Assembly (NCBI GenBank): GCA_001939945.1
Contig: MOEB01000006.1
Coordinates: 92,934-156,933 of the forward strand
DNA: 64,000 nt
Source of the DNA: Aerophototrophica crusticola
GTDB lineage: Bacteria > Pseudomonadota > Alphaproteobacteria > Azospirillales > Azospirillaceae
Direction: 5' to 3'
A program made the position numbers and the translations under genes. Shown one piece after another: positions 18,157 through 34,485 of this stretch. How positions within the stretch are numbered: position 1 is the first letter of the stretch; each line of letters opens with the position of its first letter. The notes below the pieces were generated by a model. That model did no database searches. It was not told where the DNA came from and saw nothing but the letters and a program-made list of their open reading frames with translations.

Positions 18157-19292
18157 GGGTCGCCTTCTTCTACAACGCCCAGCTCCACCAGATCCCGCAC
18201 AGCCTGCCCATGGCGTTCGAGCTGTCGGCCATGCAGGGATTCTGCGTGGACATCCTGTCCCCCTATCCCGGCCACCTGGACTTCGTCCGTGAGATGGAGC
18301 GGCTCTACCCGGAGTCGCGGGTCAATTACCGCCTGCTGGGGACGGCCTGGCCCCTGCGCCTGCTGCGCAAGGTCAGCCGGGTGCAGGTGCCGCCGAAGCT
18401 GCTGACCCTCTGGCACAACCGGCATGTCTTCGACGAGTACGACGCCCTGGTGGTGACGGAGAAGACCAGCCTGAACCTGAAGAGGTTCGGCGTCCGCCGG
18501 CCCAAGTTCATCCACACCGCCCACGGTGCGGGGGACAAGGGCACGGCGGTGGAGCGGCGCATCCGGAAGTTCGACTTCGTCCTGGCCCCCGGGCCGAAGA
18601 CGGCCGGCTGGCTGGCGGAGGCGGGGCTGGTCCGGCCGGGCGACCATGCCGTCGGCGCCTATGCCAAGTTCGACATGGTCCGCCGGATGCGCCAGCAACC
18701 GCGGCGCCTGTTCGACAATGACCGGCCGACCATCCTGTACAATCCCAACTGGGACCCGAAATACGCATCGTGGGAGCGGTTCGGCTGGGACGTGCTGGAA
18801 TATTTCGCCGGCAGCGACCGGTACAATCTGGTGTTCGCCCCCCACGTCAGGCTGTTCGACCCGCCGACACCGGACAAGTACGCGCCCTTCGCCCGTTACC
18901 GCGACCTGCCGCACATGCTCATCGACCTGGGCAGCGGCCGCAGCGTGGACATGACCTACACGATCAGCGCCGACGCCTATCTCGGCGACGTGTCCAGCCA
19001 GGTGTACGAGTTCCTGCTGTCGCCCCGGCCCTGCCTGTTCCTCGACGCCCACGGGGTGGAATGGCAGGGCAACCCCCGCTACCTGTTCTGGACCCTGGGG
19101 CCCGTGGTGTCCGACATGGCGGACTTCGGCGCGGCGCTGGATTCCCTGATGGCCGACCCGTCCCCCTGGCGGCCGTTCCAGGAACAGGCGGTGGCCGCGA
19201 CATTCGACCTGACCGTCGCCGAGCCCGGCCGGCACAATGCCGACGTCATCGCCACATGGCTGCGGAAGAAGGTGGCGGCCGGAAAGGCCTGA
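18153..19292 (+). CDS. TagF-like / CDP-glycerol glycerophosphotransferase-type protein
   Basis: The 379-residue cytosolic protein has a GT-B-like two-domain layout. The C-terminal half shows the pattern of the CDP-glycerol:polyglycerol-phosphate transferase family: ILYNPNWDPK (usually YxPTWR), a VFAPH strand, DAYLGDVSSQVYEFLLSPRPCLFLD (usually SDYSS...E...xxPxxF) and a following GP segment. Members transfer glycerol-phosphate or related groups to lipid-linked sugars. It overlaps the flippase by four bases. A sphingoglycolipid or polysaccharide acceptor is possible; the exact donor is not deducible. Confidence 0.65.
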   Translation: MRVAFFYNAQLHQIPHSLPMAFELSAMQGFCVDILSPYPGHLDFVREMERLYPESRVNYRLLGTAWPLRLLRKVSRVQVPPKLLTLWHNRHVFDEYDALVVTEKTSLNLKRFGVRRPKFIHTAHGAGDKGTAVERRIRKFDFVLAPGPKTAGWLAEAGLVRPGDHAVGAYAKFDMVRRMRQQPRRLFDNDRPTILYNPNWDPKYASWERFGWDVLEYFAGSDRYNLVFAPHVRLFDPPTPDKYAPFARYRDLPHMLIDLGSGRSVDMTYTISADAYLGDVSSQVYEFLLSPRPCLFLDAHGVEWQGNPRYLFWTLGPVVSDMADFGAALDSLMADPSPWRPFQEQAVAATFDLTVAEPGRHNADVIATWLRKKVAAGKA

Positions 19293-19400: not shown

Positions 19401-19504
19401 GCGCGTTCCATCTTTGCCCGGCCCTTCGACGGTCGCGACGATAACCCCTTCGCGTGTTAGGCTTATCGCCCGCCACGCCCTCGTTTGTTGGAACCCAGGA
19501 CCCC

Positions 19505-21235
19505 ATGTCGTCACCCACCCCCACCGCTTCCGGGCTGGCCAGGCGCCTTGCCGACTTCCGCACGGTCGCGGAGGCGCTGGACTATGCCGCCAGGGGAGCG
19601 ACCGGCCTGAACTTCTATTCCGGCCGGGGGGAGTTGCTGGAGGTGCTCACCTACCGCGCCCTGCGGGACCAGTCCCTGGACCTGGCCCGGCGGATGCTGG
19701 CCGCCGGACTGGTGCCGGGGGAACGGGTGGCCATCATCGCGGAGTCCGACGGCGATTTCCTGCGGGCCTTCATGGCCTGCCAGTATGCCGGGCTGGTGCC
19801 GGCCCCCATGCCGCTGCCCGCGGCATTCGGCGGCAAGGACGCCTATGTCGACCATATCCGCCGCATGATCCAGGGTGCCCAGGCCGCAGCCGCCCTGGCC
19901 CCGGCCGCCCTGGCCGACTGGCTGGCCGCCGCGGCCGACGGGCTGGACCTGAAGGCGGTGGGCACGCTGGCCCTGTTCCAGGACGTGTCCGCGGACGGGG
20001 TGGAACTGCCCACCGTCGGCCCGGACGACCTCTGCTATCTCCAGTTCTCCTCCGGCAGCACCCGCTTCCCCCTGGGCGTCGCGGTGACGCAGGGCGCCTT
20101 GATGGCCAATTGCGTGGGCATCACCCGCGACGGGCTGAAGGTGCGTGACGGGGACCGGGCCACCTCCTGGCTGCCCCTCTACCATGACATGGGCATGGTG
20201 GGTTTCATGCTGGCCCCGCTGGTCAGCCAGCTCTCCATCGACCTGTTGCCGACGCGGGAATTCGCGCGGCGGCCGCTGCTCTGGCTGCAGCTCATCACCC
20301 GCAATGGCGGCACCCTGTCCTACAGCCCCAGCTTCGGCTATGAGCTGGCCAGCCGCCGGGCGCAGACCGCCTCGACCGAGGATATCGACCTGTCGGGCTG
20401 GCGGGTGGCCGGCATCGGCGGCGACATGGTGCGCCCCCGGGTGCTGGAGCGGTTCGCCGACGCCTTCGGGCCCCGCGGCTTCCGGAAGGAGGCCCTGGTC
20501 GCCAGCTATGGCATGGCGGAGGCGAGCCTTGCCCTCAGCTTCGCGCCGCTGGACACGGGGCTGGTCACCGACCTGGTGGACCTGGACCGGCTGGAGAACG
20601 AACAGGTGGCCGTGCCCCCCGGGCCGGATACCGAGCGGTCCCGCGACTTCGTGCTGAACGGCCCGGCCCTGCCGGGGCATGAGATCCAGGTGCGGGATGA
20701 GGTGGGCCGGCCCGTCGCCGAACGCCAGGTGGGCCGCGTCTTCGCCCGCGGCCCGTCGCTGATGCGGGAGTATTTCGGCCGGCCGGAAGAGACGGCCGCG
20801 GCCCTGTCCGCGCAGGGATGGCTGGACACGGGCGACCTGGGCTACCTCTGCGACGGGCAGATTGTCATCACCGGCCGTGCCAAGGACCTGATCCTGGTGA
20901 ACGGCCGCAACATCTGGCCGCAGGACCTGGAGTGGACGACGGAGCACCAGGTCGAGTCGCTGCGCAGCGGCGATGTGGCCGCCTTCTCCGTGGATGAGGA
21001 CTCAGGCGAGGTGGTCATGGTTCTGGTCCAGTGCCGGACCAGCGACCCGGGCGCCCGCGACGCGTTGGCACAGGAGGTGGCCGGCGTGCTGCGCTCCGCC
21101 CACGGGGTGGAGGTGCGGGTGGTCCTGGTGCCCACCCATTCCCTGCCGCAGACCTCCTCCGGCAAGCTCAGCCGCTCCCGCGCCAAGCAGATGTACCTGC
21201 GGGGGGAGTACGGCCGCGGCACGGCGGCAGCCTGA
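19505..21235 (+). CDS. Fatty-acyl-AMP ligase / acyl-ACP synthetase of sphingolipid synthesis
   Basis: The ATG at 19505 follows an AGGA site. The 576-residue adenylate-forming enzyme has the P-loop-like YLQFSSGSTRFPLG motif, WLPLYHDMGMVG, YGMAEASLALSF, and the C-terminal LDTGDLGYLCDGQIVITGRAKDLI hinge with a catalytic Lys region near SSGKLSRSRAK. These are hallmarks of FAAL-type ligases, which activate fatty acids as acyl-AMP and load an acyl carrier protein. With the ACP and serine palmitoyltransferase downstream, the likely job is to make the acyl-ACP substrate for SPT, as in the equivalent Caulobacter cluster. It starts a co-directional run of four genes. Confidence 0.88.
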   Translation: MSSPTPTASGLARRLADFRTVAEALDYAARGATGLNFYSGRGELLEVLTYRALRDQSLDLARRMLAAGLVPGERVAIIAESDGDFLRAFMACQYAGLVPAPMPLPAAFGGKDAYVDHIRRMIQGAQAAAALAPAALADWLAAAADGLDLKAVGTLALFQDVSADGVELPTVGPDDLCYLQFSSGSTRFPLGVAVTQGALMANCVGITRDGLKVRDGDRATSWLPLYHDMGMVGFMLAPLVSQLSIDLLPTREFARRPLLWLQLITRNGGTLSYSPSFGYELASRRAQTASTEDIDLSGWRVAGIGGDMVRPRVLERFADAFGPRGFRKEALVASYGMAEASLALSFAPLDTGLVTDLVDLDRLENEQVAVPPGPDTERSRDFVLNGPALPGHEIQVRDEVGRPVAERQVGRVFARGPSLMREYFGRPEETAAALSAQGWLDTGDLGYLCDGQIVITGRAKDLILVNGRNIWPQDLEWTTEHQVESLRSGDVAAFSVDEDSGEVVMVLVQCRTSDPGARDALAQEVAGVLRSAHGVEVRVVLVPTHSLPQTSSGKLSRSRAKQMYLRGEYGRGTAAA

Positions 21236-21245
21236 CGGCAGGCCC

Positions 21246-22217
21246 ATGGCAGTCGGAGCAGACAGCGCGCCGCGGCCCCTGGCGGCCCTGACCGGGGCCA
21301 CCGGGTTCCTGGGCCGGCACGTCATCCGGGCGCTGCATAAAGCGGGGTTCCGGGTCCGGATTCTGGTGCGCCAGGACCCCGTCCACCCCCTGACGGCCGC
21401 GGTGCCCCTGGAGGTGGTCCCCGGCGACCTGTCCAGCGATGCCGCGCTGGAGCGGCTGGTGCGCGGGGCCGACGCGGTCATCCATGCCGCGGGCCTGATC
21501 AAGGCGGCCGGCAGGAAGGACTTCTTCGCCATCAACGAGGGCGGCTCCGCCCGGCTGGGCCGTGCCATGGCCAAGGCGGCACCCGGCGCCCGGCTGGTGG
21601 TGGTCTCCAGCCTCGCGGCGCGGGAGCCGCAGCTTTCCCCCTATGCCGCCAGCAAACGGGCGGGGGAGGAGGCGGCGGTGCGCTGCTCCGGCACGGAGGA
21701 TTGGGTGGTGCTGCGCCCCCCGGCCCTGTACGGCCCCGGCGACCGCGAGACGCTGGCCCTGTTCAAGGCTGCCGACAGCCCCGTCGTGCCCGTCGCGGGT
21801 GGTCCCGGCGCGCGCCTGGCCCTGCTGCATGTGGAGGATTGCGCGGCGGCCGTCGCCGCCCTGGCCCGTCCCGGCGGCCCCCGCGGTCAGACCTACGAGC
21901 TGGCCGACGGCAAGCCCGGCGGATATGGCTGGGCGGATTTGCTTGACACCGCCGCGGCGGCCCTGGGGCACAAGGCCGTGCGGGTCAGAGTCGCCGCCCC
22001 GCTGCTGCGTGGGATGGGTCTGGCGGGCAGCGGCTGGGCATGGCTGCTTCGACGTCCGGTCATGATGACATCCGGCAAAGTCCGTGAAATTCTCCACCCG
22101 GACTGGTCGGTCGACCCGTCCGGCATGCCGCCCCCGGGCCTGTGGAAGCCCACCCGCAAGCTGTTGGAAGGATTTACGGAATCCGTTTCCTGGTACCGAC
22201 ACCAGGGCTGGCTATAG
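21246..22217 (+). CDS. cerR: NAD(P)-dependent SDR reductase, CerR-like
   Basis: The 323-residue extended SDR starts at the ATG at 21246, 10 bases after the ligase stop. It has the Rossmann motif TGATGFLG, the DAVIHAAG strand, and an active-site YxxxK in SPYAASKRAG. In the homologous Caulobacter sphingolipid cluster the protein in this position reduces the 3-keto group of the sphingoid/ceramide intermediate. Gene order ligase-SDR-ACP-SPT is the same, so I assign that role. Sequence alone cannot exclude another sugar or lipid epimerase function. Confidence 0.75.
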   Translation: MAVGADSAPRPLAALTGATGFLGRHVIRALHKAGFRVRILVRQDPVHPLTAAVPLEVVPGDLSSDAALERLVRGADAVIHAAGLIKAAGRKDFFAINEGGSARLGRAMAKAAPGARLVVVSSLAAREPQLSPYAASKRAGEEAAVRCSGTEDWVVLRPPALYGPGDRETLALFKAADSPVVPVAGGPGARLALLHVEDCAAAVAALARPGGPRGQTYELADGKPGGYGWADLLDTAAAALGHKAVRVRVAAPLLRGMGLAGSGWAWLLRRPVMMTSGKVREILHPDWSVDPSGMPPPGLWKPTRKLLEGFTESVSWYRHQGWL

Positions 22218-22431: not shown

Positions 22432-22683
22432 ATGGACGCTGAAGACGACGAGATCGTTGCAGAGATCATCCGCGCCCTCGGGCCTAGCCTGCAATCGCCC
22501 GTTACCATCACCACCGACACGAACATCACCCGCGACCTGGGGCTCGACTCCCTGGCCGTCATGGATTTCGTGATGGTGCTTGAGGACAGGTTCGACATCT
22601 CCATCCCCCTTGAGCGCATCGCCGAGGTGGAGACGGTGGGGGATCTGGCGCGGACGATCCGGGAACTTCGGGGGCGCTCCTGA
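22432..22683 (+). CDS. Acyl carrier protein dedicated to sphingolipid synthesis
   Basis: The 83-residue acidic protein has the phosphopantetheine site DLGLDSLAVMDF with Ser40 as attachment residue and the usual four-helix ACP pattern. It ends two bases before the SPT start codon. An ACP linked to an acyl-AMP ligase and SPT implies that SPT uses acyl-ACP and not acyl-CoA, as reported for Caulobacter. Confidence 0.92.
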   Translation: MDAEDDEIVAEIIRALGPSLQSPVTITTDTNITRDLGLDSLAVMDFVMVLEDRFDISIPLERIAEVETVGDLARTIRELRGRS

Positions 22684-22685
22684 AC

Positions 22686-23909
22686 ATGACCATCCTCGCG
22701 AAATTTTCCCCGCTGCGTGAGAACTATGAGCGGCTTCGGGCCCTGGGGCACGATCCCTTCTCAGTCAAGTTCGAGCGCATCGTGTCGCCGACCGAGGGCG
22801 TGCTGCGCGGGAAGCGCACCATCCTGCTGGGCACCAACAACTATCTGGGCCTGACCTTCGACCCGAGCTGCATCGACGCTGGCGTCGCCGCGCTCGAAGG
22901 GCAGGGGACGGGCACCACCGGCTCGCGCATCGCCAACGGCACCTATGGCGGCCATGGCGATCTGGAAGCGGCCCTGGCGGACTTCTACGGCCGCCAGCAC
23001 TGCATGGTGTTCACCACGGGCTATCAGGCCAACCTGGGCATCATCTCCACGCTGGTCGGCAAGGACGATTTCCTGCTGATCGACAGCGACAGCCACGCCA
23101 GCATCTATGACGCGGCGAAGATGGGCACCGCCCCGGTGGTGCGCTTCCGGCACAACGACCCGGACGACCTTTACAAGCGCCTGCGCCGCCTGGGCGACCA
23201 GCCCGGCAACAAGCTGGTGGTGGTGGAGGGCATCTACTCCATGCTGGGCGACACCGCCCCGCTGAAGGAGTTCGTGCAGGTGAAGCGGGAGACCGGCGCC
23301 TTCCTGCTGGTGGACGAGGCCCATTCCATGGGCGTCCTCGGCGAGAACGGCCGCGGCCTCGCGGAGCAGGAGGGGGTGGAGGACGACGTGGACTTCACCG
23401 TCGGCACCTTCTCCAAGAGCCTGGGCGCCGTGGGCGGCTTCTGCGTGTCCGACCACCCGGATTTCGACATCCTGCGGGTGGCCTGCCGGCCCTACATGTT
23501 CACCGCCTCCCTGCCGCCGTCGGTCATCGCCACCACCCTGCAGGCGCTGAAGCGCATGCGGGAGGAGCCGGGCCTGCGCCGTCGCCTGACCGCCAATGCG
23601 GAACGGCTGTATTACGGGCTGAAGGGGCTGGGCTTCGAGCTGGGGCCTGAGCCGAACCCCATCGTCTCCGTCATGCTCCCGAACAAGGAGCTGGCCATCG
23701 CGGCCTGGAACATGCTGCTGGAGGCGGGCCTGTACCTGAACCTGGCCCTGCCGCCGGCGACGCCCAACAGCCTCGCCCTGCTGCGCTCCAGCGTCAGCGC
23801 CGCCCACACGCCGGCGCAGATCGATACGGCCATCGAGCTGTTCGGCCAGGTCGGCCGCCGGCTCGGTGTCCTGCCCACCCCTGGCCTCGTGGTCCAGGCG
23901 GCGGAGTAA
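22686..23909 (+). CDS. spt: Serine palmitoyltransferase
   Basis: The 407-residue PLP enzyme of the alpha-oxoamine synthase family condenses L-serine with a C16-type acyl thioester to 3-ketosphinganine. Visible motifs are TGSRIANGTYGGH, HASIYDAA, EGIYSMLGD, the cofactor Asp in LLVDEAH (Asp210), and the Schiff-base Lys244 in GTFSKSLGAVGG. The VACRPYMFTASLPPSV segment matches the Sphingomonas SPT pattern closely and distinguishes it from 8-amino-7-oxononanoate synthase. It is the committed step of the pathway and closes the operon, with a strong terminator 42 bases downstream. Confidence 0.93.
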   Translation: MTILAKFSPLRENYERLRALGHDPFSVKFERIVSPTEGVLRGKRTILLGTNNYLGLTFDPSCIDAGVAALEGQGTGTTGSRIANGTYGGHGDLEAALADFYGRQHCMVFTTGYQANLGIISTLVGKDDFLLIDSDSHASIYDAAKMGTAPVVRFRHNDPDDLYKRLRRLGDQPGNKLVVVEGIYSMLGDTAPLKEFVQVKRETGAFLLVDEAHSMGVLGENGRGLAEQEGVEDDVDFTVGTFSKSLGAVGGFCVSDHPDFDILRVACRPYMFTASLPPSVIATTLQALKRMREEPGLRRRLTANAERLYYGLKGLGFELGPEPNPIVSVMLPNKELAIAAWNMLLEAGLYLNLALPPATPNSLALLRSSVSAAHTPAQIDTAIELFGQVGRRLGVLPTPGLVVQAAE

Positions 23910-24012: not shown

Positions 24013-24100
24013 GCCGGCGACCGCCGGCCCGCGCCCTCGTGGGCGCGTGAGCCAAGCCCGCCGATGCGGGCGCCCGGCGCTTGAGGGGACGCGTATCAGG
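24013..24100 (+). repeat. Repeat family A, copy 3
   Basis: Core copy beginning CCGGCGACCGCCGG and ending CTTGAGGGGACGCGTATCAG. It lacks both accessory hairpins seen in copies 2 and 5. Its end reads TGATACGCG on the minus strand, resembling the family terminus TGATACCA, and that TGA is the stop codon of the methyltransferase gene. Confidence 0.7.
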
Positions 24101-24683
24101 CCTTCCGCCAGAGGGTCGCGAGCCAGGTCTGCTGGCGACGCGGGGCGTCCAGGGGGCGGCGCCATTCCTCCACCAGGGTGAGGCCCGAGTCCCGCGCCAG
24201 CCGCTTCCAGGACTGGGGGCGGCGCAGGGCGATGTGGCGGTCTTCCACCCAGCCTTCCTCCCCCGACCCGGTAGGGTCGCAGGCGTAGAAGACCCCGCCC
24301 GGGCGCAGGGTGGCCAGGATGGCGGCCAGCAGCGCGGGAAGGCCCGGCGTGGGGACATGGAACAGCACGGCTTGGGCGAACACCCCGTCGAAGGCTTCCG
24401 CGGGAAGGCCCGGATCGGCCAGGTCCCGTTCCCAGACGGGGCAGCCGCTGTATGCCCGCGCCGCGGCGGCAAGGGTGGGGGAGCCGTCCAGGCCGACGGC
24501 GCGGTGCCCGGCCGCGGCGAAAGCCTTCAGGTCCCGACCGGGGCCGCAGCCCAAATCCAGGATGTCCGCCGCTTCCTTGGCGATGGCTGCCAGGAAGCGC
24601 CGGCGGCTGTCGCCTGTGTCATGGCCCAGCAGGGCAGTCCCATACTCGGCGGCGTGTGCCTCGTAATGGGCGATGCTGCTCAC
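24096..24683 (-). CDS. Class I SAM-dependent methyltransferase
   Basis: The GTG at 24683 overlaps the preceding stop codon (GTGA), giving a 195-residue protein. The SAM site is DILDLGCGPGRD near residues 40-51, followed by an acidic-loop strand (AVGLDGS) and the FDGVFAQAVLFHV motif IV region. It lacks the motifs of DNA or rRNA methylases. As the last gene of an operon for a lipid kinase, cytidylyltransferase and phosphatidyltransferase, it may methylate the sphingolipid head group. The stop codon lies inside repeat A copy 3. Confidence 0.8.
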   Translation of the reverse strand: MSSIAHYEAHAAEYGTALLGHDTGDSRRRFLAAIAKEAADILDLGCGPGRDLKAFAAAGHRAVGLDGSPTLAAAARAYSGCPVWERDLADPGLPAEAFDGVFAQAVLFHVPTPGLPALLAAILATLRPGGVFYACDPTGSGEEGWVEDRHIALRRPQSWKRLARDSGLTLVEEWRRPLDAPRRQQTWLATLWRKA

Positions 24684-25615
24684 CGGATCGCCCCCTGCCG
24701 CCTCAGCTGCCACAGCAGCAGGGGCGCCGACAGGATGGGGTGGCGGCGTTGCCAGGGCGTCATTTCCAGCCTCACGCCGGAATGCCGCTCGATCTTCCAG
24801 GTGATGTAGTCCACCCCGCCGACGAAGGTGAAGGCCGCCTTCGCCAGCCGGCTGACATTCAGTGCCTTGCCCGCGAGCCGCCGCAGGGCCCAGCCGCGCC
24901 GCGCGGCCTTCCGCTGGGCTGGCGTGAGGGCCGGGGCCAGCGCCCCGCCGCCAACCTCCCGCCAATCGAGCCCCGCCTGGGCCAGGGCGGGGCGGAACAG
25001 GTCCCGGTAGCGGGCAGGGTCGTGGCCGACGATGCTCACGGCCCGCTCCCCCGTCTCCACCCGCAACTCGGCCGCGTAGGTGTGGCGGAACAGGGCGTCC
25101 CAATAGTCCAGCGGCGTCCCCTGGTCGGGGCCGAGTCGGGCCGCCCAGGCGCAGGCCGTGGTGGTTGCCGTCGCCACCAGCCCCGCCGCCTTGTTCCTGG
25201 CCGCCGCATCACGGGCGTAGGCAAGGCGGGCAGGCTGGGCGAAGCGGGCCCAGATGGTGGTGTCCAGGCTGCCCGGCCGGACGGCGCGGGCGAACTGGTC
25301 CGGCCGCATCACCGCCACCTTGGCCCGGAGGATGCGGCCGTCCACCGGGACCTCCCAATACTCCACCGTCGGCGGCAGCAGCCGTGTGGCCAGGGCCAGC
25401 CCCGGGCTGCCGTGCCAGGCGCGCAGGGAGTCCACCAACACGTAGAAGTCCAGGATGCCGTCCAGATCGCCGGTGCGCAGGATGGAGCCGTAGAACAGCA
25501 CGGCCGCTACGGTGCCGCCACCCTTGGCCGCCAACGCGTCCACCATGGGCCGTGTGCCCGCGGGGATGGGCCGGTCCAGTTCCGCCGCCAGCACCTCCGC
25601 CAGGGCGGCGCTCAT
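24680..25615 (-). CDS. Tam41-like phosphatidate/ceramide-phosphate cytidylyltransferase candidate
   Basis: The 311-residue soluble protein has a nucleotidyltransferase core, LFYGSILRTG at about residues 40-49, then DFYVLVDSLRAWHG at 56-69. The pairing of YGS with D-F-x3-V-D...WH, followed by a VEYWEVPVDGRILRAKVAV strand and an IWARFAQPARLAY stretch, matches the order of motifs in Tam41, the mitochondrial CDP-diacylglycerol synthase (YGS, DFxFxVDDPxxWH, VYFN...G..IKYGV, W..LY.AGRL.KPV). It overlaps the lipid-kinase gene by four bases and the methyltransferase by four. The inferred reaction is CTP plus ceramide-1-phosphate (or phosphatidate) to the CDP-lipid. No homology search was run. Confidence 0.62.
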   Translation of the reverse strand: MSAALAEVLAAELDRPIPAGTRPMVDALAAKGGGTVAAVLFYGSILRTGDLDGILDFYVLVDSLRAWHGSPGLALATRLLPPTVEYWEVPVDGRILRAKVAVMRPDQFARAVRPGSLDTTIWARFAQPARLAYARDAAARNKAAGLVATATTTACAWAARLGPDQGTPLDYWDALFRHTYAAELRVETGERAVSIVGHDPARYRDLFRPALAQAGLDWREVGGGALAPALTPAQRKAARRGWALRRLAGKALNVSRLAKAAFTFVGGVDYITWKIERHSGVRLEMTPWQRRHPILSAPLLLWQLRRQGAIR

Positions 25616-26568
25616 GGCACGACGAAATCGATCAGCGGCCCGCTGGACAGGTGCACCACACCGCCGGGGCCGGGCTGGTAGACCTCCCCGTCCAGGATGA
25701 AGGGCCGGGTCAGGCCCCAGGTCAGCCGGTCGGTCACGCCGCTGCGATAGCCGTCCCGCTTCATCCAGCGTGTGGGCTTGCCGCGCAGGATGCGGGGCAG
25801 GGCGCAGGCCAGGTGCGCCGGGTTGGCGGCCACGTCCAGGTAACGCACGGACCCGTCCCCCTCACCCCAGAAGGGCCAGAGGCCAAGCATCAGCCGGTGC
25901 AGCGTGGTAGCCAGGGTGATGAAGCGGCTGCCGGCGGGGCCGTTGCAATCCGGCGTCACCACCGACATGGGTTCCCCCGCCAGCCAGCCGTCCCGGTCGT
26001 TGCCCACCAGGGCGCGGCCCAACACGCCGGCCATGGTGGCGATGACGGCGGGCCCCTGGGTCAGGCCCTTGGCATGATAGCCCTGGGCCAGCTCGGTCCC
26101 CCGGGTGAAGGCGCCCGCCCCGGCGAACATGCCCAGGACCGGCGCCTGGCTGCCGTCGGCCCAGCTCACCTCCAGCGCGTGGCGGCGGCGGATATGGCCG
26201 CCCAGGGTGCCTTTCCGCGCGCCCTCCACCAGCCGAGCCAAGCCTTTCAGCCCGGGGCCGGGCGTGCCCACGTCGGCGGCGATCAGGTTTGTCTTGCCCG
26301 ACGCCAGGATGCTGAGCTGGGGCAGGCTGTCGCCATAGGCCTGGGGCAGGGCGGTCAGCACCTCCCGCACCGTGCCGTCGCCCCCGTCCACGCAGATGAT
26401 CTCCACCCCGTCCCGGGCGAAGTCGGCCAGCACGTCCGACAGCTCCGCCGGTGTGGCGGGCTCGGCGAAGTAAAGGCCCAGCATGGCCGCCGCCCGGTCG
26501 CGCGCGTCCGATCCCGCCGCCTTGTTGCGGGTGCTCTTGGGGTTGCGGATCAGGCCGAGGCGGACCAT
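25612..26568 (-). CDS. LCB5/DAG-kinase-family lipid kinase (ceramide kinase candidate)
   Basis: The 318-residue protein has the diacylglycerol-kinase catalytic pattern: IRNPKST near the N-terminus, the nucleotide-binding VDGGDGTVREV with GGDGT at 62-66, and a C-terminal beta-rich lipid-binding domain ending in FILDGEVY. The eukaryotic sphingosine and ceramide kinases belong to the same superfamily, and an LCB5-type ceramide kinase is known from the Caulobacter ceramide-phosphoglycerate cluster. With SPT and bCerS-like genes nearby, ceramide or sphingoid base is the likely substrate; diacylglycerol remains possible. It starts 9 bases after the CDP-alcohol transferase stop. Confidence 0.8.
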   Translation of the reverse strand: MVRLGLIRNPKSTRNKAAGSDARDRAAAMLGLYFAEPATPAELSDVLADFARDGVEIICVDGGDGTVREVLTALPQAYGDSLPQLSILASGKTNLIAADVGTPGPGLKGLARLVEGARKGTLGGHIRRRHALEVSWADGSQAPVLGMFAGAGAFTRGTELAQGYHAKGLTQGPAVIATMAGVLGRALVGNDRDGWLAGEPMSVVTPDCNGPAGSRFITLATTLHRLMLGLWPFWGEGDGSVRYLDVAANPAHLACALPRILRGKPTRWMKRDGYRSGVTDRLTWGLTRPFILDGEVYQPGPGGVVHLSSGPLIDFVVP

Positions 26569-26577
26569 GGCGTCACG

Positions 26578-27774
26578 TCAGCTCGCCAGCCAGGACCGGA
26601 TCGGGCCGGCGCGGCGGGCGGCGAGTGCCTGGAGGATCTGCACCATGTGGACGCCGAAGCAGAACAGGGTCCACAGGGCCACCGCCACCATGCCCCATTC
26701 CGGCCGGTCCGCCACGGCGAAGCCGGTCAGCAGCAGCAGGTTCGGGTTGCGGCGGGCGGTGATCAGCCGGAAGAAGCTGTCGAACCGGCGCCAGATGTGG
26801 ATCTCGATCTTGAACACGGACAGGAAGACACCCTCCTGCACCCGTTGCAGCACATAGCCGCCCACGACGATCCAGAAGACCAGGTCGGGGTACAGCGTGT
26901 CATACCCGTTGGACCAGAGGCCCACCATCCAGGCCCAATACCAGAAGGGCGGGTGGACCAGGTCGATGCCGTGGTCGAAGACATTGCCCCACTTGCTGCT
27001 GGTCAGGGTGACGCGGGCCAGCTTGCCGTCCACCGTATCCAGGAAGGTCATGCCCCACGCGGCGGCAAGGCCCAGCAGGAAATGCCCCTCCCAGAACATC
27101 CAGAAGGCGATGCCCACCAGCACGGCGCTCAGCGTCGTCACCATGTTCGGCGTGATGCCCAGCAGGGCACAGGCCTTGGTCACGTGCCGGGCCGGCCAGG
27201 GCCAGACATATTTGGTCACCAGGTCGGTGACGCCCTTGTAGCTGCCGGCGAACATGCGCTGCTCGATCCTCGGCAGGGCCTCCGGCGTCAGCCGCAGCAG
27301 GAAGGGCGGCTCCTTCTTGCGCAGGGCGTTGTTGTAGGTGCTGGTCAGCTCACCGGGGCCCACCACCCGCAGCCGCTCCCGCAGTTCATCCGGCACGACG
27401 CGGGATGAGCCCAGCATGGACGCCACGGCGGCGGCGTCGGCAGGTTCCACATGGGCGGCCACCGGCTCCCCCGACCGGCTGTCCACCAGGATGGTGCCCG
27501 GTGACTTGGCCAGGTCGCGCACCAGCGCCTCGTCGAACACCCAGTCCGCGCGCAGCAGGATCTGCGGGAGGCCGCCGTCGAACCCGTCCCAACCGCGCAC
27601 GTCGGTGATGCCGCTGCGCACCAGGGACCGGCGCAGCCGCTCCGCCGAGGTCATGCCCCACAGGCGCACGGGGCTTTCGCCCACGATGGCGCCCTGGGGT
27701 TTCCGTGCCGTTTGGGTGTCGTCCTTGCCCACGTCCGCCGCCAACTCTAGAACCATTGCCACGCGCTGCTTCAT
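26578..27774 (-). CDS. CDP-alcohol phosphatidyltransferase with extra N-terminal domain
   Basis: The 398-residue membrane protein contains the full family signature DxxDGxxARx8Gx3Dx3D at residues 246-271 (from DTVDG to HGID), with about six hydrophobic helices from residue 205 onward (TPNMVTTLSAVLV...). The motif binds the CDP-lipid or CDP-alcohol and metal ions. Residues 1 to about 170 form a soluble domain that looks like a degenerate MobA-type nucleotidyltransferase, as in inositol-phosphate cytidylyltransferase/DIPP-synthase fusions, but the nucleotide-binding GxGxRM loop is missing. It leads the minus-strand operon. Its likely role is joining a phospho-head group to ceramide or CDP-ceramide. 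Confidence 0.85.
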   Translation of the reverse strand: MKQRVAMVLELAADVGKDDTQTARKPQGAIVGESPVRLWGMTSAERLRRSLVRSGITDVRGWDGFDGGLPQILLRADWVFDEALVRDLAKSPGTILVDSRSGEPVAAHVEPADAAAVASMLGSSRVVPDELRERLRVVGPGELTSTYNNALRKKEPPFLLRLTPEALPRIEQRMFAGSYKGVTDLVTKYVWPWPARHVTKACALLGITPNMVTTLSAVLVGIAFWMFWEGHFLLGLAAAWGMTFLDTVDGKLARVTLTSSKWGNVFDHGIDLVHPPFWYWAWMVGLWSNGYDTLYPDLVFWIVVGGYVLQRVQEGVFLSVFKIEIHIWRRFDSFFRLITARRNPNLLLLTGFAVADRPEWGMVAVALWTLFCFGVHMVQILQALAARRAGPIRSWLAS

Positions 27775-27873
27775 ACCTGGGGTGAGGGGGTTTGCCTACC
27801 CACCCGCGTGACGGTTGCGTGACATGGTGGCATGGTTGCCACTTTCATCCCCTGGCCGTCACCGCGGGCAAGC

Positions 27874-28839
27874 ATGGTCGCCTTTCGTTTCGCGCATCTC
27901 TCCGACCCACACCTGCCGCTGGTGCCTGGGGAAACCAAGGCTTCGCACCTGTTTTCCAAGCGGGCGCTGGGGTTCCTGTCCTGGCAGCGCAAGCGTCGCC
28001 GCATCCACAGCCCTGCCATGCTGGCGCGGCTGGTGGAGGATGTGAGGGCCGCTGCCCCCGACCATGTGGCCGTCACGGGGGACCTGGCCAACATCGCCAT
28101 GGCCGGGGAATTCGCGCGGGGGCGGGATTGGCTGCGTTCCCTGGGCAACGCGGAAGCTGTGACGGTCATCCCCGGCAACCACGACACGCTGGTGCCGTTC
28201 CCCTGGGACGAGGGGCTGGGACTCTGGACCCCCTGGATGGCCGCCGACCCGGGGCAGGAGGGGGAAGGGCCGTTCCCCGCCGTGCGCGTGCGCGGCCCGG
28301 TGGCCTTCGTCTGCCTCAACTCCGGCCTACCCACCCCGCCGCTGCTGGCGACCGGCCGGTTGGGTCCGGCCCAGATCCGCGCCGCCCGCGACCGGCTGGA
28401 ATCGCTGGGCCGCCAGGGGCTGTTCCGCGTGGTGCTGGTCCACCACCCCGTGGCATCGGGCGTGATCTCCCCCCGCAAGGCCTTGTCGGACCAGCAGGAT
28501 TTCCGCGCCATGCTGGCGGGGGTGGGGGCGGAGCTGGTGCTGCACGGCCATGCCCACCGGAGCTGCTTCAGCACCGTGCCGGGCCCGTCTGGGCCCATCC
28601 CGTGCCTTGGCGTTCCGTCCGCCTCCTCCGCCCCGTCACGCCGCCGGGCGGACAGCCACAAGGACGAGCCGGCGCGCTGGCACCTCCTGTCCGTGGCGCG
28701 GACGGCGGAAGGCTGGCGCCTGACGGTCACGGCCCGGGGACCGAAGGCCAGCGACGGCGGGTTCGGGACGTTGGGGGAGTATGTCATGGACCTGCCGGCG
28801 GCAGCGGCCTTGCCGTCTGCCCTCAGTAGCGCAGCCTGA
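27874..28839 (+). CDS. Calcineurin-like metallophosphoesterase
   Basis: I prefer the ATG at 27874, where the family's FRFAHLSDPHLP strand begins; the in-frame ATG at 27832 adds 14 residues. The 321-residue protein shows the binuclear metal ligands DPH, GDLAN, GNHD, VLVHHP and GHAH in order. It is cytoplasmic with no signal peptide. Lying between lipid-head-group and lipid-transport genes, it may be a lipid phosphate or CDP-lipid phosphatase; the nucleotide-sugar hydrolase LpxH has the same fold. Its last 17 bases overlap the convergent DUF2141 gene. Confidence 0.85.
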   Translation: MVAFRFAHLSDPHLPLVPGETKASHLFSKRALGFLSWQRKRRRIHSPAMLARLVEDVRAAAPDHVAVTGDLANIAMAGEFARGRDWLRSLGNAEAVTVIPGNHDTLVPFPWDEGLGLWTPWMAADPGQEGEGPFPAVRVRGPVAFVCLNSGLPTPPLLATGRLGPAQIRAARDRLESLGRQGLFRVVLVHHPVASGVISPRKALSDQQDFRAMLAGVGAELVLHGHAHRSCFSTVPGPSGPIPCLGVPSASSAPSRRRADSHKDEPARWHLLSVARTAEGWRLTVTARGPKASDGGFGTLGEYVMDLPAAAALPSALSSAA

Positions 28840-29290
28840 TGGTCACGCTGTTGTCGCCCGCCTTGGCGTCGAACCGCACCTCCTGGAACCGGGGCAGGCC
28901 CAGGGTCGTCTCCGCGTTGTTGGAGAAGCCATAGCCTTCCTTCGGCATGCCAAGCATGGTCCGGTTGAAGTCCTTGTCCCCGTTCTCATCATGGTACACG
29001 GCGATGGCATAGCCGCCAGCCTCCGGCGCGGGCAGGCAGATGCTGGTGGCGGGGACGGTCGCGGGCACCCGGATGCGGGCGATCTTGCCGGTGCGGGCCA
29101 GGAACTTGTCCGGGTCGTCAGGGTAAAGGGTGATGGTGACGTTGCCCGCCGCCCTGCGCACCCCCTCTACCGTCAGGTTCAGCCGCACTTCCCCGTCACC
29201 GCCGTCACAGGCGGGGGCAGGGGTGGCGGCAAAGGCCTTCGCGACCCCGGCCAGCATCAGGATCGAGAGGGCGAGGCTGGTCTTGCGCAT
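28823..29290 (-). CDS. Secreted DUF2141 protein
   Basis: The ATG at 29290 follows an AGGA site and opens a clear signal peptide (MRKTSLALSILMLAGVAKAFAA). The 155-residue protein then shows the DUF2141 beta-sandwich: VTITLYPDDPDKFL, YAIAVYHDENGDKDFN, and LGMPKEGYGFSNNA. Family function is unknown; the Asp/Asn-rich HDENGDKDFN turn suggests a calcium or metal site. DUF2141 genes recur beside lipid and cell-envelope genes, which fits this setting. Confidence 0.85.
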   Translation of the reverse strand: MRKTSLALSILMLAGVAKAFAATPAPACDGGDGEVRLNLTVEGVRRAAGNVTITLYPDDPDKFLARTGKIARIRVPATVPATSICLPAPEAGGYAIAVYHDENGDKDFNRTMLGMPKEGYGFSNNAETTLGLPRFQEVRFDAKAGDNSVTIRLRY

Positions 29291-29555
29291 GCGCGGGTCC
29301 TGGTCTGTCGTGCCGGGGAAGGGGCCGGGCAAGGCTCGCAGTCTAGGGCTGCCGTCCGCCCCGTCCACCCCTTTCGGGACATGGCTTGTCCAACCCGGGA
29401 TCAACCGGCGGTGTGATGGCCGTCATCGAACGAAGGGCATTGGTGGTGTCATGCTTCGCTTTCTCGGGCATCACCCGCCTGGCCGGGGTCGCGGATCGTT
29501 TGGCAGGTGACATGATTGGCACTAGAGTAGCGCCGCGCCGCCGGCACCCCTGCCC

Positions 29556-30060: not shown

Positions 30061-31302
30061 GTGACAGACCTCGCCCAACCGGCCCCCCGCCTTGGCACGC
30101 CCGGCGGGACGGGCCTGATCGATCGCTATATCCTGGTGGAGCTTGCGAAGCCGCTGCTGGCATCGCTGGCCGTCGTGCTGGTGGCCCTGCTGATGGAGCG
30201 GGTGCTGCGCCTGTTCGAGCTGCTGGCCCAGCATGGCGGCGCCTTCGACACGGTCATCCTGATGGCGGCCAACCTGGTGCCGCACTATCTGGGCCTGGCC
30301 CTGCCGGCGGCCTTCTTCATCAGCATGTTCGTCATCGTCGCCCGCATGGGGGAGGACAACGAGCTTGACGCCCTCCAGTCCAGCGGCCTGTCGGTGGCCC
30401 GGATCGCCCGCCCGCTGCTGTTCACCGGCTTCGGGCTGATGGTGTTCAGCGTGCTGCTGTTCGGTTTCCTGCAGCCCTACAGCCGCTATGCCTACCGCGC
30501 CCTGTTCCATGTGGTGACCAATACCGCCTGGGACGCCACCGTGCCGGAGACCAGCTTCGTGCAGGCCGGTGACGGGGTCACCATCAGCGCCGACATGGTG
30601 GACTCCACGGGGCGGGAGCTGACCGGCGTCTTCATCCACCAGCTCCGCCCCGACGGGGAGGAATGGGTGACCACCGCCGCCGGCGGGCGGCTGGACGCGA
30701 CGCCCGACCGCAGGCGCATCCTGCTGACCCTGGAGAACGGCACCCAGCTCCGCACCCGACCCGACGGGCGGCAGCAGTTGCTGGACTTCAACACCCTGAC
30801 CGTTGACCACCCCTTCAACCTGGAAGCCCCGCCCTTCCGCGCCCGCGGCGGCAGCGAGCGGGAACTGACCCTGCTGGAGCTGTGGCGGGAGATGCACGAC
30901 CCCACCTCCCTGCTGCCCAAGCGCAAGCTGGCAGCGGAGTTCAACGGGCGGCTGGTGCGGGCGGTGACGCTGCCGTTGCTGCCCCTGCTGGCGGTGCCCA
31001 TGGGCATGGCGGCCAAGCGGGCCCGCCGCGGCCTGGGCATCACCCTGGCCGCGGTGATCCTGGTCGTCTACCACCACTCCGTCCAACTGGGTGAGAGCCT
31101 TGCGGACGTGGGCCGGTTGCCGCCGGGCATCGGCGTATGGGTGCCCTTCGTGCTGTTCACCGCCCTGTGCCTCTGGCTGTTCCACCGGGCCCAGGTTCGG
31201 CCGGGGGACAACCCCTTCGTCAACGCCTTCGAGCGGATGGACGCCCTGCTGCACCGGCTGGGCCGCAGCCTGCCGAAGCGCCGGAAGGAGCCGGCGGCAT
31301 GA
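30061..31302 (+). CDS. lptF: LptF-like YjgP/YjgQ permease
   Basis: The 413-residue protein starts at GTG and has the LptF/G layout: an N-terminal DRYILVELAKPLLASLAVVL helix, two more helices, a periplasmic beta-jellyroll of about 160 residues (roughly 150-310), then three C-terminal helices. LptF and LptG form the membrane channel of the LptB2FG exporter that extracts lipopolysaccharide from the inner membrane. The pair here lies inside a sphingolipid locus and without lptA, lptB or lptC, so it may be a second set serving an anionic sphingolipid. The window cannot show whether another pair exists. Confidence 0.88.
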   Translation: MTDLAQPAPRLGTPGGTGLIDRYILVELAKPLLASLAVVLVALLMERVLRLFELLAQHGGAFDTVILMAANLVPHYLGLALPAAFFISMFVIVARMGEDNELDALQSSGLSVARIARPLLFTGFGLMVFSVLLFGFLQPYSRYAYRALFHVVTNTAWDATVPETSFVQAGDGVTISADMVDSTGRELTGVFIHQLRPDGEEWVTTAAGGRLDATPDRRRILLTLENGTQLRTRPDGRQQLLDFNTLTVDHPFNLEAPPFRARGGSERELTLLELWREMHDPTSLLPKRKLAAEFNGRLVRAVTLPLLPLLAVPMGMAAKRARRGLGITLAAVILVVYHHSVQLGESLADVGRLPPGIGVWVPFVLFTALCLWLFHRAQVRPGDNPFVNAFERMDALLHRLGRSLPKRRKEPAA

Positions 31303-32372
31303 GCACGCCCGTCCTGACCCGCTATCTGACCCGGATGTTCGTCACCCGCTGCCTGGCGGTGCTGCTGGCGCTGTCGGCCCTTCTGCAATTGCTGGACCTG
31401 CTGGACGCCGCCAGTACCGTTTTGGAACGGGGCGGCGGGGCGGGGGACCTGGCGCGCTACATCGGCTACCGGCTGCCGGTGATCGTGGAGCAGGTGGTGC
31501 CCCTGTCCGTGCTGGTGGGAAGCCTGTCCACCCTGTGGACCCTGGCCGGGGCGAATGAGGTGGTGGCCATGCGCTCCATCGGCATGACGCCGTACCAGCT
31601 TCTCGGTGCCCTGTTCCCGGCGGCCATCGCGGTGGGCCTGCTGCATCTGGTCCTGTCCGACCAGGTGGTGCCGCGGGTGGAGCGGGGCTTCATCGACTGG
31701 TGGGCCAGCACCACCCCGCCCAACGACGAGCCGGAGGTGCCCAAGCCCCTTTGGTTCCGCCTTGGGGACCAGGTGGTCACCGCGAAGGTGGTCGCCCGCG
31801 ACGGGCGGCGGCTGGAAGGGGTGGAGGTGTTCCGACGCACGGCCGACGGCGCCCTGGTCGCCCGCCTGACCGCCGAGGCGGCCATCTATGACGGCAAGGC
31901 CTGGACCCTGGCCAACGTGGCCCGGACGGAGCTGGAGCCCACCCTCGTCACCACCCGGGCGGAGACGCAACCCTGGGACACCGCCCTGACCCCGTCCAAC
32001 CTGCGGGACCTGAGCGCGCCCACGGACCGCCAGCCCGTGTCCCGCCTGCGGGGCATCCTGCGCGGCACCTATGCGGGCACGGAAAGCCGGGCCTTCTACC
32101 AGACCCGCCTGCATGAGACCTATTCCGGCCCCTTCGCCACCCTGGTCATGCTGCTGCTGGCCGCGCCCGTGGCCCACGGCCTGCGCCGCCGCGGCGGGGC
32201 CATGGGCAACATGGCGCTGGGCGTGGTGATCGGGCTGGCCTTCCTGCTGGTGGACGGCCTCCTGGCCGCCATGGGGGAGGCGGGGAGCATGCCCCCGTTG
32301 GTCGCCGCCTGGGCACCGACCCTGTTCTTCGCCGCCGTGGGCGGGGCGATCCTGGTGCATGTGGAGGGGTAG
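31299..32372 (+). CDS. lptG: LptG-like YjgP/YjgQ permease
   Basis: The ATG overlaps the preceding stop (ATGA). The 357-residue protein has the same three helices, periplasmic jellyroll, three helices design as its neighbour, with TRYLTRMFVTRCLAVLLALSALL at the N-terminus and the LptG-type VAMRSIGMTPYQLL coupling helix near residues 87-100, which in LptG contacts the LptB ATPase. Four-base overlap with the LptF-like gene indicates a stoichiometric heterodimer. Confidence 0.88.
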   Translation: MSTPVLTRYLTRMFVTRCLAVLLALSALLQLLDLLDAASTVLERGGGAGDLARYIGYRLPVIVEQVVPLSVLVGSLSTLWTLAGANEVVAMRSIGMTPYQLLGALFPAAIAVGLLHLVLSDQVVPRVERGFIDWWASTTPPNDEPEVPKPLWFRLGDQVVTAKVVARDGRRLEGVEVFRRTADGALVARLTAEAAIYDGKAWTLANVARTELEPTLVTTRAETQPWDTALTPSNLRDLSAPTDRQPVSRLRGILRGTYAGTESRAFYQTRLHETYSGPFATLVMLLLAAPVAHGLRRRGGAMGNMALGVVIGLAFLLVDGLLAAMGEAGSMPPLVAAWAPTLFFAAVGGAILVHVEG

Positions 32373-32532: not shown

Positions 32533-33315
32533 ATGTGGGGCGACGCGTGGCGCGGCCGCAGCTATGACCTGGGCAAGATGAACCTGCGCGACCTGACGGT
32601 GGCGTACTGGACCTATCCGGCCATCCAGGCTTATGCGGCGTTGGCCCTGGTGGCGGCCGTCCTGTCCCTGTCCCTGACGACGGACTGGCTGCGCTTCGGC
32701 CTGGTGATCCTGGTGGCGTCGCTGGTCTACCCGCTGGCCTGGTACGGCATCCACCGCTGGATCCTGCACGGACGCTGGCTCTACAAGATGTCCTGGACGG
32801 CCGCCCTGTGGAAGCGCATCCACTTCGACCACCACCAGGACCCCCACAAGCTTGAGGTGCTGTTCGGCAGCCTGCTGAACACCCTGCCGACCATCGCCGC
32901 CATCACCCTGCCGGTGGGTTGGCTGATCGACGGGCTGCCCGGCGCGATGACGGCCCTGGCCACGGGCTTGGCCACCACCTGCTTCTATGAGTTCTGCCAC
33001 TGCATCCAGCACCTGAACTACAAGCCGCGGAACGCCTACTTCGCCCGGATCAAGCAGCTCCACCTGTCCCACCACTTCCATAACGAGGACGGGAACTACG
33101 GCATCACCAGCTTCCTGCCCGACATCCTGTTCGGCACCTTCTACAAGGACGCCAAGGAGCGGCCGCGCAGCCCGCACGTGTTCAACCTGGGCTACGACGT
33201 GAAGGAGGCGGAGCGGTATCCCTGGGTGATGGAGCTGACCGGTTCGCCGCCGCGGGACCGGCCGCCCCGGGCCAACGCCAACAAGACCGACACCGACCTG
33301 AAGGCCGTGTCGTGA
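32533..33315 (+). CDS. Fatty-acid/sphingolipid hydroxylase-superfamily membrane enzyme
   Basis: The 260-residue protein has four hydrophobic segments and the histidine clusters of the di-iron fatty-acid-hydroxylase/sterol-desaturase superfamily: HRWILH, HFDHHQDPHK, FCHCIQH and LHLSHHFHNE. Eukaryotic members hydroxylate the fatty acid or long-chain base of sphingolipids. Its stop codon overlaps the start of the bCerS-like gene (GTGA), so hydroxylation of the acyl chain or sphingoid base of ceramide is the most economical reading. An AAGGGG ribosome site precedes the ATG. Confidence 0.85.
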   Translation: MWGDAWRGRSYDLGKMNLRDLTVAYWTYPAIQAYAALALVAAVLSLSLTTDWLRFGLVILVASLVYPLAWYGIHRWILHGRWLYKMSWTAALWKRIHFDHHQDPHKLEVLFGSLLNTLPTIAAITLPVGWLIDGLPGAMTALATGLATTCFYEFCHCIQHLNYKPRNAYFARIKQLHLSHHFHNEDGNYGITSFLPDILFGTFYKDAKERPRSPHVFNLGYDVKEAERYPWVMELTGSPPRDRPPRANANKTDTDLKAVS

Positions 33316-34478
33316 GTGCCGCCGAAGCCCTGGCCCCGCGGGATGCCTCCCTGCGGGTGGTTCCGGTGTCGCCGGACGACAAGGCGGCGATGGCGCGCTT
33401 CATCCGGCTGCCCTACCGCATCAATGCCGGGGACCCCAACTGGGTGCCGCCCCTGCTGATGGAGCGGGAGGAGTCCCTCTCCCCCGCCAAGAACCCGTTC
33501 TTCGGGCATGCCGAGGTGCAGTTCTTCCTGGCCGTGCGGGACGGGCGGGACGTGGGCCGGATCAGCGCCCAGGTGGACAAGCTTTCCCCCCTCACGGCCG
33601 ATGGGGTCGGCTGTTTCGGCATGATCTGCGCCGAGGACGACCCGGACATCTTCGCCGCCCTGTTCGAGGCGGCAGAGGCTTGGTTGCGGGCCAAGGGCAT
33701 GCGCGCCGCCCAGGGTCCCTTCAATCTCTCCATCAATGAGGAGATGGGCCTGCTGGTGGCCGGCCACGACACGCCGCCCGTCATGATGATGCCCCACGAC
33801 CAGCCCTATGTGGCCCGCCGGATAGAGGCGCTGGGCTATGCCAAGGCGAAGGATGTCTACGCTTACTGGTATGACATCCGGAAGGAACTCCCCAAGTATG
33901 TCCGCCAGATGCTGGAGCGGAAGCTTCCTGGCCAGGTCGTCCTGCGCAAGCTGGACATGAAGAACTATGCCCGGGACGTCCGGTACCTGACGGAGATCTT
34001 CAACGACGCCTGGATGGGCAACTGGGGCTTCGTCCCGTTGACCGACGCCGAGACGGAGCATCTGGCCACGTCGCTGCGCCCGCTTGTGGTGGCGGACATG
34101 GTCTGGTTCGTGGAGATCGACGGGGAGCCAGCGGCCTTCGGCGTCTGCCTGCCCAACCTGAACGAGGCGATCCGCGATCTGGGCGGCAGCCTGTTCCCCC
34201 TGGGCTGGGCCAAGCTGCTGTGGCGGCTGAAGGTGTCCGGCGTGAAGACGGCCAGGGTGCCGCTGATGGGCGTGAGGCAGAAGTTCCAGGTGGGCCTGTC
34301 TGGCGGCATCCTGCCGTTCCTGGTGATCAACGGCATGCGGGAGAACGCGATCAAGCGGGGGATCGAGTTCGTGGAGCTGTCCTGGATCCTTGAGGACAAC
34401 CTGCCCATGCGGAAGATCAACGAACGGATCGGCAGCATCCCCTACAAGACCTATCGAATCTACGGCAAGGCCCTGTAG
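33312..34478 (+). CDS. bcerS: GNAT-fold acyltransferase, bacterial ceramide synthase candidate
   Basis: The 388-residue soluble protein starts at GTG. It has the pattern of the long GNAT-related family that includes bacterial ceramide synthase of Caulobacter: FIRLPYRINAGDPNWVPPLLMERE at the N-terminus, FFLAVRDGRDVGRISAQVD, GPFNLSINEEMGLL, and a C-terminal EFVELSWILEDNLPMRKINERIG segment matching the family's ExxWxLxxN...I stretch. This enzyme N-acylates 3-ketosphinganine, or the sphingoid base, to give (keto)ceramide. The assignment relies on family resemblance plus the SPT-containing locus. Confidence 0.7.
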   Translation: MSAAEALAPRDASLRVVPVSPDDKAAMARFIRLPYRINAGDPNWVPPLLMEREESLSPAKNPFFGHAEVQFFLAVRDGRDVGRISAQVDKLSPLTADGVGCFGMICAEDDPDIFAALFEAAEAWLRAKGMRAAQGPFNLSINEEMGLLVAGHDTPPVMMMPHDQPYVARRIEALGYAKAKDVYAYWYDIRKELPKYVRQMLERKLPGQVVLRKLDMKNYARDVRYLTEIFNDAWMGNWGFVPLTDAETEHLATSLRPLVVADMVWFVEIDGEPAAFGVCLPNLNEAIRDLGGSLFPLGWAKLLWRLKVSGVKTARVPLMGVRQKFQVGLSGGILPFLVINGMRENAIKRGIEFVELSWILEDNLPMRKINERIGSIPYKTYRIYGKAL

Positions 34479-34485
34479 CGCTGCC

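Follow-up and report, generated by a model that had tools for sequence, protein, structure and literature searches.

The 64,000-nucleotide stretch of the Aerophototrophica crusticola genome analysed here (the window) carries the genes cpgA, cpgB and cpgC on its minus strand, and our principal conclusion is that they form the ceramide phosphoglycerate (CPG) and ceramide diphosphoglycerate (CPG2) operon known from Caulobacter crescentus, and not a new system. The pathway is assigned in this way because the surrounding sphingolipid genes match the published cluster. We describe the orthology and synteny of the locus with the Caulobacter CPG cluster, a predicted fold for CpgC that resembles Tam41, the co-occurrence of cpgC with sphingolipid synthesis, and the coupling of CpgA to another protein of the pathway, CpgD; we infer that CpgC forms cytidine diphosphate (CDP)-ceramide in a reaction dependent on cytidine triphosphate (CTP).

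In order of transcription, cpgA (26578-27774, minus strand, 398 residues) encodes a CDP-alcohol phosphotransferase (Pfam PF01066, E 1.2e-10), cpgB (25612-26568, minus, 318 residues) a ceramide kinase of the DAGK_cat/LCB5 type (PF00781, E 6.7e-11), cpgC (24680-25615, minus, 311 residues) a nucleotidyltransferase of predicted Tam41 fold, for which we propose the role of CTP:ceramide-1-phosphate cytidylyltransferase, and a further gene (24096-24683, minus) an S-adenosylmethionine-dependent methyltransferase. Nine nucleotides separate the cpgA stop from the cpgB start, the cpgB stop and cpgC start overlap by four nucleotides (ATGA), and the cpgC stop is in turn overlapped by the GTG start of the methyltransferase (GTGA), which is therefore the fourth gene in the run. 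The original prediction, made from this DNA alone, had CpgC translationally coupled to an LCB5/DAG-kinase protein and sharing an operon with a DGxxAR-type transferase; the ATGA overlap bears out the former, and the short spacing and intact motif of CpgA the latter. The active site of CpgA reads D246-x2-DG-x2-AR-x8-G-x3-D-x3-D271, its named residues are invariant in all 24 aligned proteins, and it conforms to the motif of CDP-alcohol phosphotransferases (PF01066), D-x2-DG-x2-AR-x8-9-G-x3-D-x3-D. CpgB has GGDG at residue 62 and lacks the eukaryotic CxxxCxxC, which agrees with the published definition of the bacterial ceramide kinase by an LCB5/DAGK domain, GGDG and no CxxxCxxC (PMC10331486). The predicted ceramide-kinase-type partner is supported by domain and motif, and ceramide kinase activity has been demonstrated for Caulobacter CpgB itself (PMC10331486).

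Relatives of CpgC were collected by a profile search of genome contigs, which gave 488 matches from which 80 loci were kept; a single-protein search of genome contigs with the window CpgC retrieved no relative. The cpgB gene adjoins cpgC at all 80 named loci. Within 10 kb of cpgC, and with contig ends scored as misses, serine palmitoyltransferase is found at 71, a MobA-like protein at 68, a phosphoesterase at 64 and cpgA at 41. The methyltransferase lies beside cpgC at only nine of the 80, labelled Niveispirillum, Oleisolibacter, Azospirillum or alphaproteobacterium, and is a lineage-specific addition to the operon that might modify the phosphoglycerate head group; Pfam Methyltransf_25/11 match the residues encoded by 24096-24557, and NCBIfam methyltransferase models all fall below cut-off.

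The published C. crescentus cluster comprises CC_1161 (CpgC), CC_1160 (CpgB), CC_1159 (CpgA), CC_1158, CC_1153 and CC_1152 (CpgD), together with ceramide genes (PMC11324152). Apart from cpgD, the window has the same genes in the order of the published list, and its CpgC, CpgB and CpgA are 48%, 39% and 56% identical to their counterparts, as measured on Caulobacter segnis, which with other Caulobacter loci stands in for C. crescentus in all our comparisons; CC_ numbers are given to window genes by inference from gene order and annotation. As in the CPG/CPG2 cluster, cpgA-cpgB-cpgC stand beside serine palmitoyltransferase and the counterparts of CC_1158 and CC_1153, and nearly the whole cluster, methyltransferase aside, has counterparts at the C. 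segnis locus. The genome also has a CpgD ortholog (G000:C285:25926-26681; 59% identical to the C. segnis protein at the CpgD position; a TAG in its frame is the terminal stop), but on this contig it is some 66 kb away, upstream of the window. The C. segnis locus differs further in lacking the methyltransferase coupled to cpgC, and in the place of a fatty-acid hydroxylase, which in the window stands between LptG and the ceramide synthase and in C. segnis elsewhere in the cluster.

Several steps of the pathway are established in Caulobacter. CTP:phosphoglycerate cytidylyltransferase (CDP-glycerate synthase) activity has been demonstrated for CpgD (PMC12275187, PMC13228409), and CpgC is genetically required for CPG, its mechanism being called 'yet unidentified' in one report (PMC12275187). 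The idea that CpgC makes a nucleotide-activated ceramide is not ours, having already been put forward in a 2024 paper. Among the matches listed in the open-licence literature, no report tests CpgC as a ceramide-activating enzyme or shows the formation of CDP-ceramide, and 'CDP-ceramide' and similar phrases retrieved no paper there.

The likeness of CpgC to Tam41, which the original prediction had read from motifs and referred to a structure-based search, was upheld by such a search. With an AlphaFold2 model of CpgC (predicted local distance difference test score 86.6, predicted template modelling score 0.84), Foldseek placed Tam41 chains of 6ig2 and 6ig4 at ranks 1 to 4 in the PDB (E 1.8e-8 to 1.2e-7), and the next fold was an aminoglycoside nucleotidyltransferase (E 3.9e-4). 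CpgC is predicted from this model to adopt the overall Tam41 fold. Tam41 was not among the matches when the PDB was searched by sequence with the window CpgC or with either of two profiles (A1, A2), and a mixed profile (A8) found only a nucleotidyltransferase domain (E 1). In a more diverse set, one of 16 proteins matched the Tam41 family PF09139, at E 1.4e-4 and with 21.8 bits where the cut-off is 24; this protein (L099) comes from another class, is 41% identical to the window CpgC over 293 residues, and aligned weakly with Tam41 in the PDB (E 1.6), pairing AKYAVIS...WARFAQP with IKYGVTS...AGRFQKP. The window's genome has no PF09139 match, and among 200 genomes of the phylum there was one, below cut-off, which is itself a CpgC relative.

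The pattern of conserved residues can be set beside this fold. Residues Y42-G43-S44 of CpgC form the YGS motif and residues 56-69 are DFYVLVDSLRAWHG, so that both quoted parts of the predicted motif are present, although the W67-H68 pair within it is not conserved: of the 48 proteins aligned, 19 have the W and 15 the H. Invariant in all 48 are G43, D56, Y58, K99, W122, R124, Q127 and P128, and also E183, R185, R256, K259, K274, R277 and H278. At position 54, where by our placement the D-x-D of nucleotidyltransferases has its first acid, all 48 have I, V, L or M, and D56 is always D; of the three acids usual in nucleotidyltransferases, Tam41 is reported to retain a single one (PMC11646218). CpgC shares with Tam41 (6ig2, 6ig4; PF09139) the predicted fold, R-F-x-x-P and a later-strand lysine that is invariant, and may also share a lone D-x-D acid, but it falls below the Pfam cut-off, has a moderate TM-score and a different genomic context, and probably acts on ceramide-1-phosphate where Tam41 acts on phosphatidate.

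That CpgC has a sphingolipid substrate is suggested by the company it keeps. We considered 47 CpgC genomes, a non-random sample made up of 14 with a match among 59 relatives (the window's genome included), 13 found among 299 genomes of the phylum, and 20 chosen for variety from genomes carrying the 80 loci. Serine palmitoyltransferase is present in all 47, in one case as a match with four internal stops, but in only two of 15 genomes from the window's family that lack CpgC (a control drawn from 21 such genomes), and this co-occurrence fits a sphingolipid substrate. The genome with the internal stops (G373, locus L089) is a Devosia metagenome-assembled genome in which several cluster genes are doubled or fragmented and CpgD and the MobA-like protein are both absent; its record is probably of poor quality. 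The chemistry of the product points the same way: CPG requires the kinase and CpgC and, as C37H72O9NP, contains a single phosphorus (PMC11324152), so the phosphate derived from the kinase should be activated before the glycerate ester forms. We believe that CpgC is probably, if not securely, a ceramide-1-phosphate cytidylyltransferase. Of the route originally proposed, the sphingolipid context stands and activation of ceramide-1-phosphate is the most reasonable chemistry; transfer of the head group by CpgA is not supported.

CpgA instead follows CpgD. It occurs in 29 of the 47 CpgC genomes and is absent genome-wide from 18. CpgD orthologs, recognised by a cut-off (E < 1e-50) that was drawn after the gap was visible, occur in 28 genomes, every one of which also has CpgA, and the sole discordant genome is G373; none was found in the 18 CpgA-less genomes, where the best value was E 8.6e-18. 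On a quick CpgC tree made without bootstrap, the CpgA label requires five changes, at least four of them forced by well-supported branches, and CpgD changes along with CpgA in 3.9 of four independent pairs. The two proteins also resemble the halves of the fused IPCT/DIPP synthase (CTP:inositol-1-phosphate cytidylyltransferase and CDP-inositol transferase, NF041135), whose N-terminal part is similar to CpgD (E 9e-15) and whose C-terminal part is similar to CpgA (E 3.2e-4). In both systems a CDP-alcohol is made and used by a pair, but CpgD and CpgA are separate genes and employ glycerate in place of inositol, as reported for Caulobacter CpgD (PMC12275187). The substrate of CpgA is probably CDP-glycerate, and CpgA and CpgD would form a unit for the second phosphoglycerate. 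Since the two are lost together, and since C. crescentus still forms CPG without CpgA (PMC11324152), CpgC probably works with some enzyme other than CpgA. The Acetobacteraceae examined (e.g., L038, L050 and L069) retain the MobA-like gene and the phosphoesterase as well as cpgB-cpgC, but neither CpgA nor a CpgD ortholog is found in them; we predict that these bacteria make a phosphosphingolipid other than CPG2. The window's genome encodes a further CpgA-like protein, a divergent one (G000:C212:114163-115134, E 3.8e-65), and another genome (G066) has two more.

On balance, we favour the following scheme. CpgB would phosphorylate ceramide, as shown for the Caulobacter enzyme. CpgC would then move cytidine monophosphate (CMP) from CTP onto ceramide-1-phosphate, yielding CDP-ceramide and pyrophosphate. 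A transferase would swap the CMP for glycerate, or for phosphoglycerate with subsequent dephosphorylation, to give CPG. Finally, CpgD would produce CDP-glycerate, an activity demonstrated in Caulobacter, from which CpgA would transfer another phosphoglycerate onto CPG and so form CPG2, as published genetics and the co-loss described above suggest.

Several observations weigh against this scheme. The match to Tam41 is moderate, with TM-scores (template modelling scores) of 0.48-0.55 and a root-mean-square deviation of 6.2-7.4 Å over 266-298 alignment columns of a predicted model; TM-scores near 0.5 denote a shared fold and not close kinship. PF09139 has no match in the window CpgC, in 14 aligned proteins or in any of 48. 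In vitro, CpgB phosphorylates not only ceramide but diacylglycerol too (PMC10331486), and ceramide synthesis is not always accompanied by CpgC, given the two control genomes that have serine palmitoyltransferase and lack CpgC. The four independent pairs on the CpgC tree are too few for significance (sign test, p 0.125). The MobA-like protein is present in 46 of 47 CpgC genomes and persists without CpgA-CpgD, a near-universality that the scheme does not explain. Finally, there is the transferase itself: when CDP-alcohol transferases were counted in all 18 CpgA-less genomes and, for a total of 20, in those of the window and C. segnis, ten of the 18 had only two (E 1e-3), and in the three CpgA-less genomes checked the CDP-alcohol transferase family held no candidate for using CDP-ceramide besides PgsA and PssA.

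In those three genomes (G096, G351 and G357) both remaining CDP-alcohol transferases look like PgsA and PssA, one PssA lying below cut-off, and so CDP-ceramide, if it is made, must be used either by PgsA or by an enzyme from outside the family. In C. segnis the family consists of one PgsA plus CpgA. Because some CpgA-less genomes have no dedicated transferase left, the housekeeping PgsA can be proposed as the coupling enzyme. CpgC would then be the first Tam41-fold enzyme to make CDP-ceramide, PgsA would couple this to a phosphoglycerate-like acceptor, the cluster phosphatase would trim the product, and CpgA-CpgD would be an optional module for the second head group. We offer this fuller version tentatively, and regard it in its entirety as rather unlikely.

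An alternative that would also explain how CPG forms without a CDP-alcohol transferase is that CpgC catalyses some other head-group reaction, such as the direct transfer of glycerate to ceramide-1-phosphate from an activated glycerate made, redundantly, by CpgD or the MobA-like protein. This agrees with what Zik et al., authors of the first CPG paper, proposed according to PMC11324152, and it would give a place to the MobA-like protein, which shows a weak resemblance to CofC and whose reading frame, by a mechanically assigned start, opens where cpgC ends or just within it in four loci from Sphingomonas (L062, L070, L078 and L086). In the window this protein, the CC_1153 counterpart by gene order, is a MobA/IspD/CofC-like nucleotidyltransferase (34390-35262, plus strand; Pfam NTP_transf_3, E 4.6e-12; NCBIfam ispD and CofC weak); its true start may be downstream. 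However, single deletions of CC_1153 or CC_1152 (CpgD) retain CPG, and phosphoglycerate placed onto ceramide-1-phosphate would bring two phosphorus atoms to a product that has one (PMC11324152). We consider this reading unlikely.

The fold relation to Tam41 and the action of CpgB on diacylglycerol in vitro might together suggest that CpgC is a plain phosphatidate cytidylyltransferase, feeding CDP-diacylglycerol into the operon. However, a separate CdsA-family protein (PF01148) is present in all 47 CpgC genomes, and CpgC is therefore not needed as a housekeeping CDP-diacylglycerol synthase; we set aside the idea that it is the genome's own such enzyme, and a housekeeping role is unlikely. CpgC moreover tracks serine palmitoyltransferase and is required for CPG (PMC11324152), which makes a phosphatidate substrate decidedly improbable. 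Very improbable too is the scheme as first predicted, in which CpgA attaches the head group by using CDP-ceramide made by CpgC: the three genes do share one operon and the CpgA motif is intact, but Caulobacter CPG forms without CpgA, and CpgA goes with CpgD and is missing from those 18 CpgC genomes.

Returning to the preferred CPG/CPG2 assignment, the remaining cluster genes in the window lie on the plus strand unless stated otherwise. At lower coordinates than the operon are a fatty acyl-AMP ligase (AasR counterpart, 19454-21235; NCBIfam PRK09192, 880 bits, cut-off 600), a protein of the NAD-dependent epimerase/dehydratase family that is the counterpart of ceramide reductase CerR (20973-22217; PF01370, E 3.5e-24; syntenic with C. 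segnis, its true start probably downstream), an acyl carrier protein counterpart recognised by position only (22432-22683; 69 of 80 loci have a stretch like it) and serine palmitoyltransferase (22686-23909; NF047599, 683 bits, cut-off 500). On the other side are the metallophosphoesterase (27832-28839; PF00149, E 1.6e-10), the CC_1158 counterpart by gene order, permeases of the LptF type (LptF2 counterpart, 30061-31302; PF03739, E 1.6e-72) and the LptG type (LptG2 counterpart, 31137-32372; PF03739, E 1.9e-77; true start probably downstream), and a protein that gene order marks as the counterpart of ceramide synthase CC_1154 (33312-34478), which has no Pfam match and is 59% identical to the C. 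segnis protein at the same position. A DUF2141 protein (28823-29404, minus strand) adjoins the phosphoesterase and has a counterpart in 16 of 80 loci. The cluster's own member of the fatty-acid hydroxylase family (32533-33315; PF04116, E 5.6e-20) is a candidate for ceramide hydroxylation, which in C. crescentus is reportedly performed by CC_0202, encoded elsewhere (PMC11324152).

A flippase-like protein (16756-18156) lies upstream of a glycosyltransferase-B (GT-B) protein (18153-19292) that is weakly similar to CDP-glycerol glycerophosphotransferases. The latter has a GT-B fold for which uridine diphosphate N-acetylglucosamine (UDP-GlcNAc) 2-epimerases are the leading matches and TagF appears from rank 29 on, and seven of 14 aligned proteins show some match to PF04464 (E 0.0011 at best), although the protein in the window is not one of them. 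From gene order it may be the counterpart of CC_1167, which has been called probably unrelated despite a cofitness of 0.57 with spt (PMC11324152). We considered this protein as a general CPG transferase and rejected it; it occurs in only 26 of the 47 CpgC genomes and does not track the loss of CpgA.

CPG2 is reported to aid Caulobacter survival without lipopolysaccharide (PMC12275187) and is the presumed target of polymyxin in Caulobacter (PMC11324152). A core of CpgB, CpgC and the MobA-like protein, joined optionally by CpgA-CpgD, points to the gene deletions and the species by which the pathway's steps could be told apart. If CpgC makes CDP-ceramide, sphingolipid head groups would be built from a CDP-activated lipid in the manner of bacterial phospholipids, and if PgsA does serve as the coupling enzyme, the pathway would be a sphingolipid copy of the PgsA/Pgp route.

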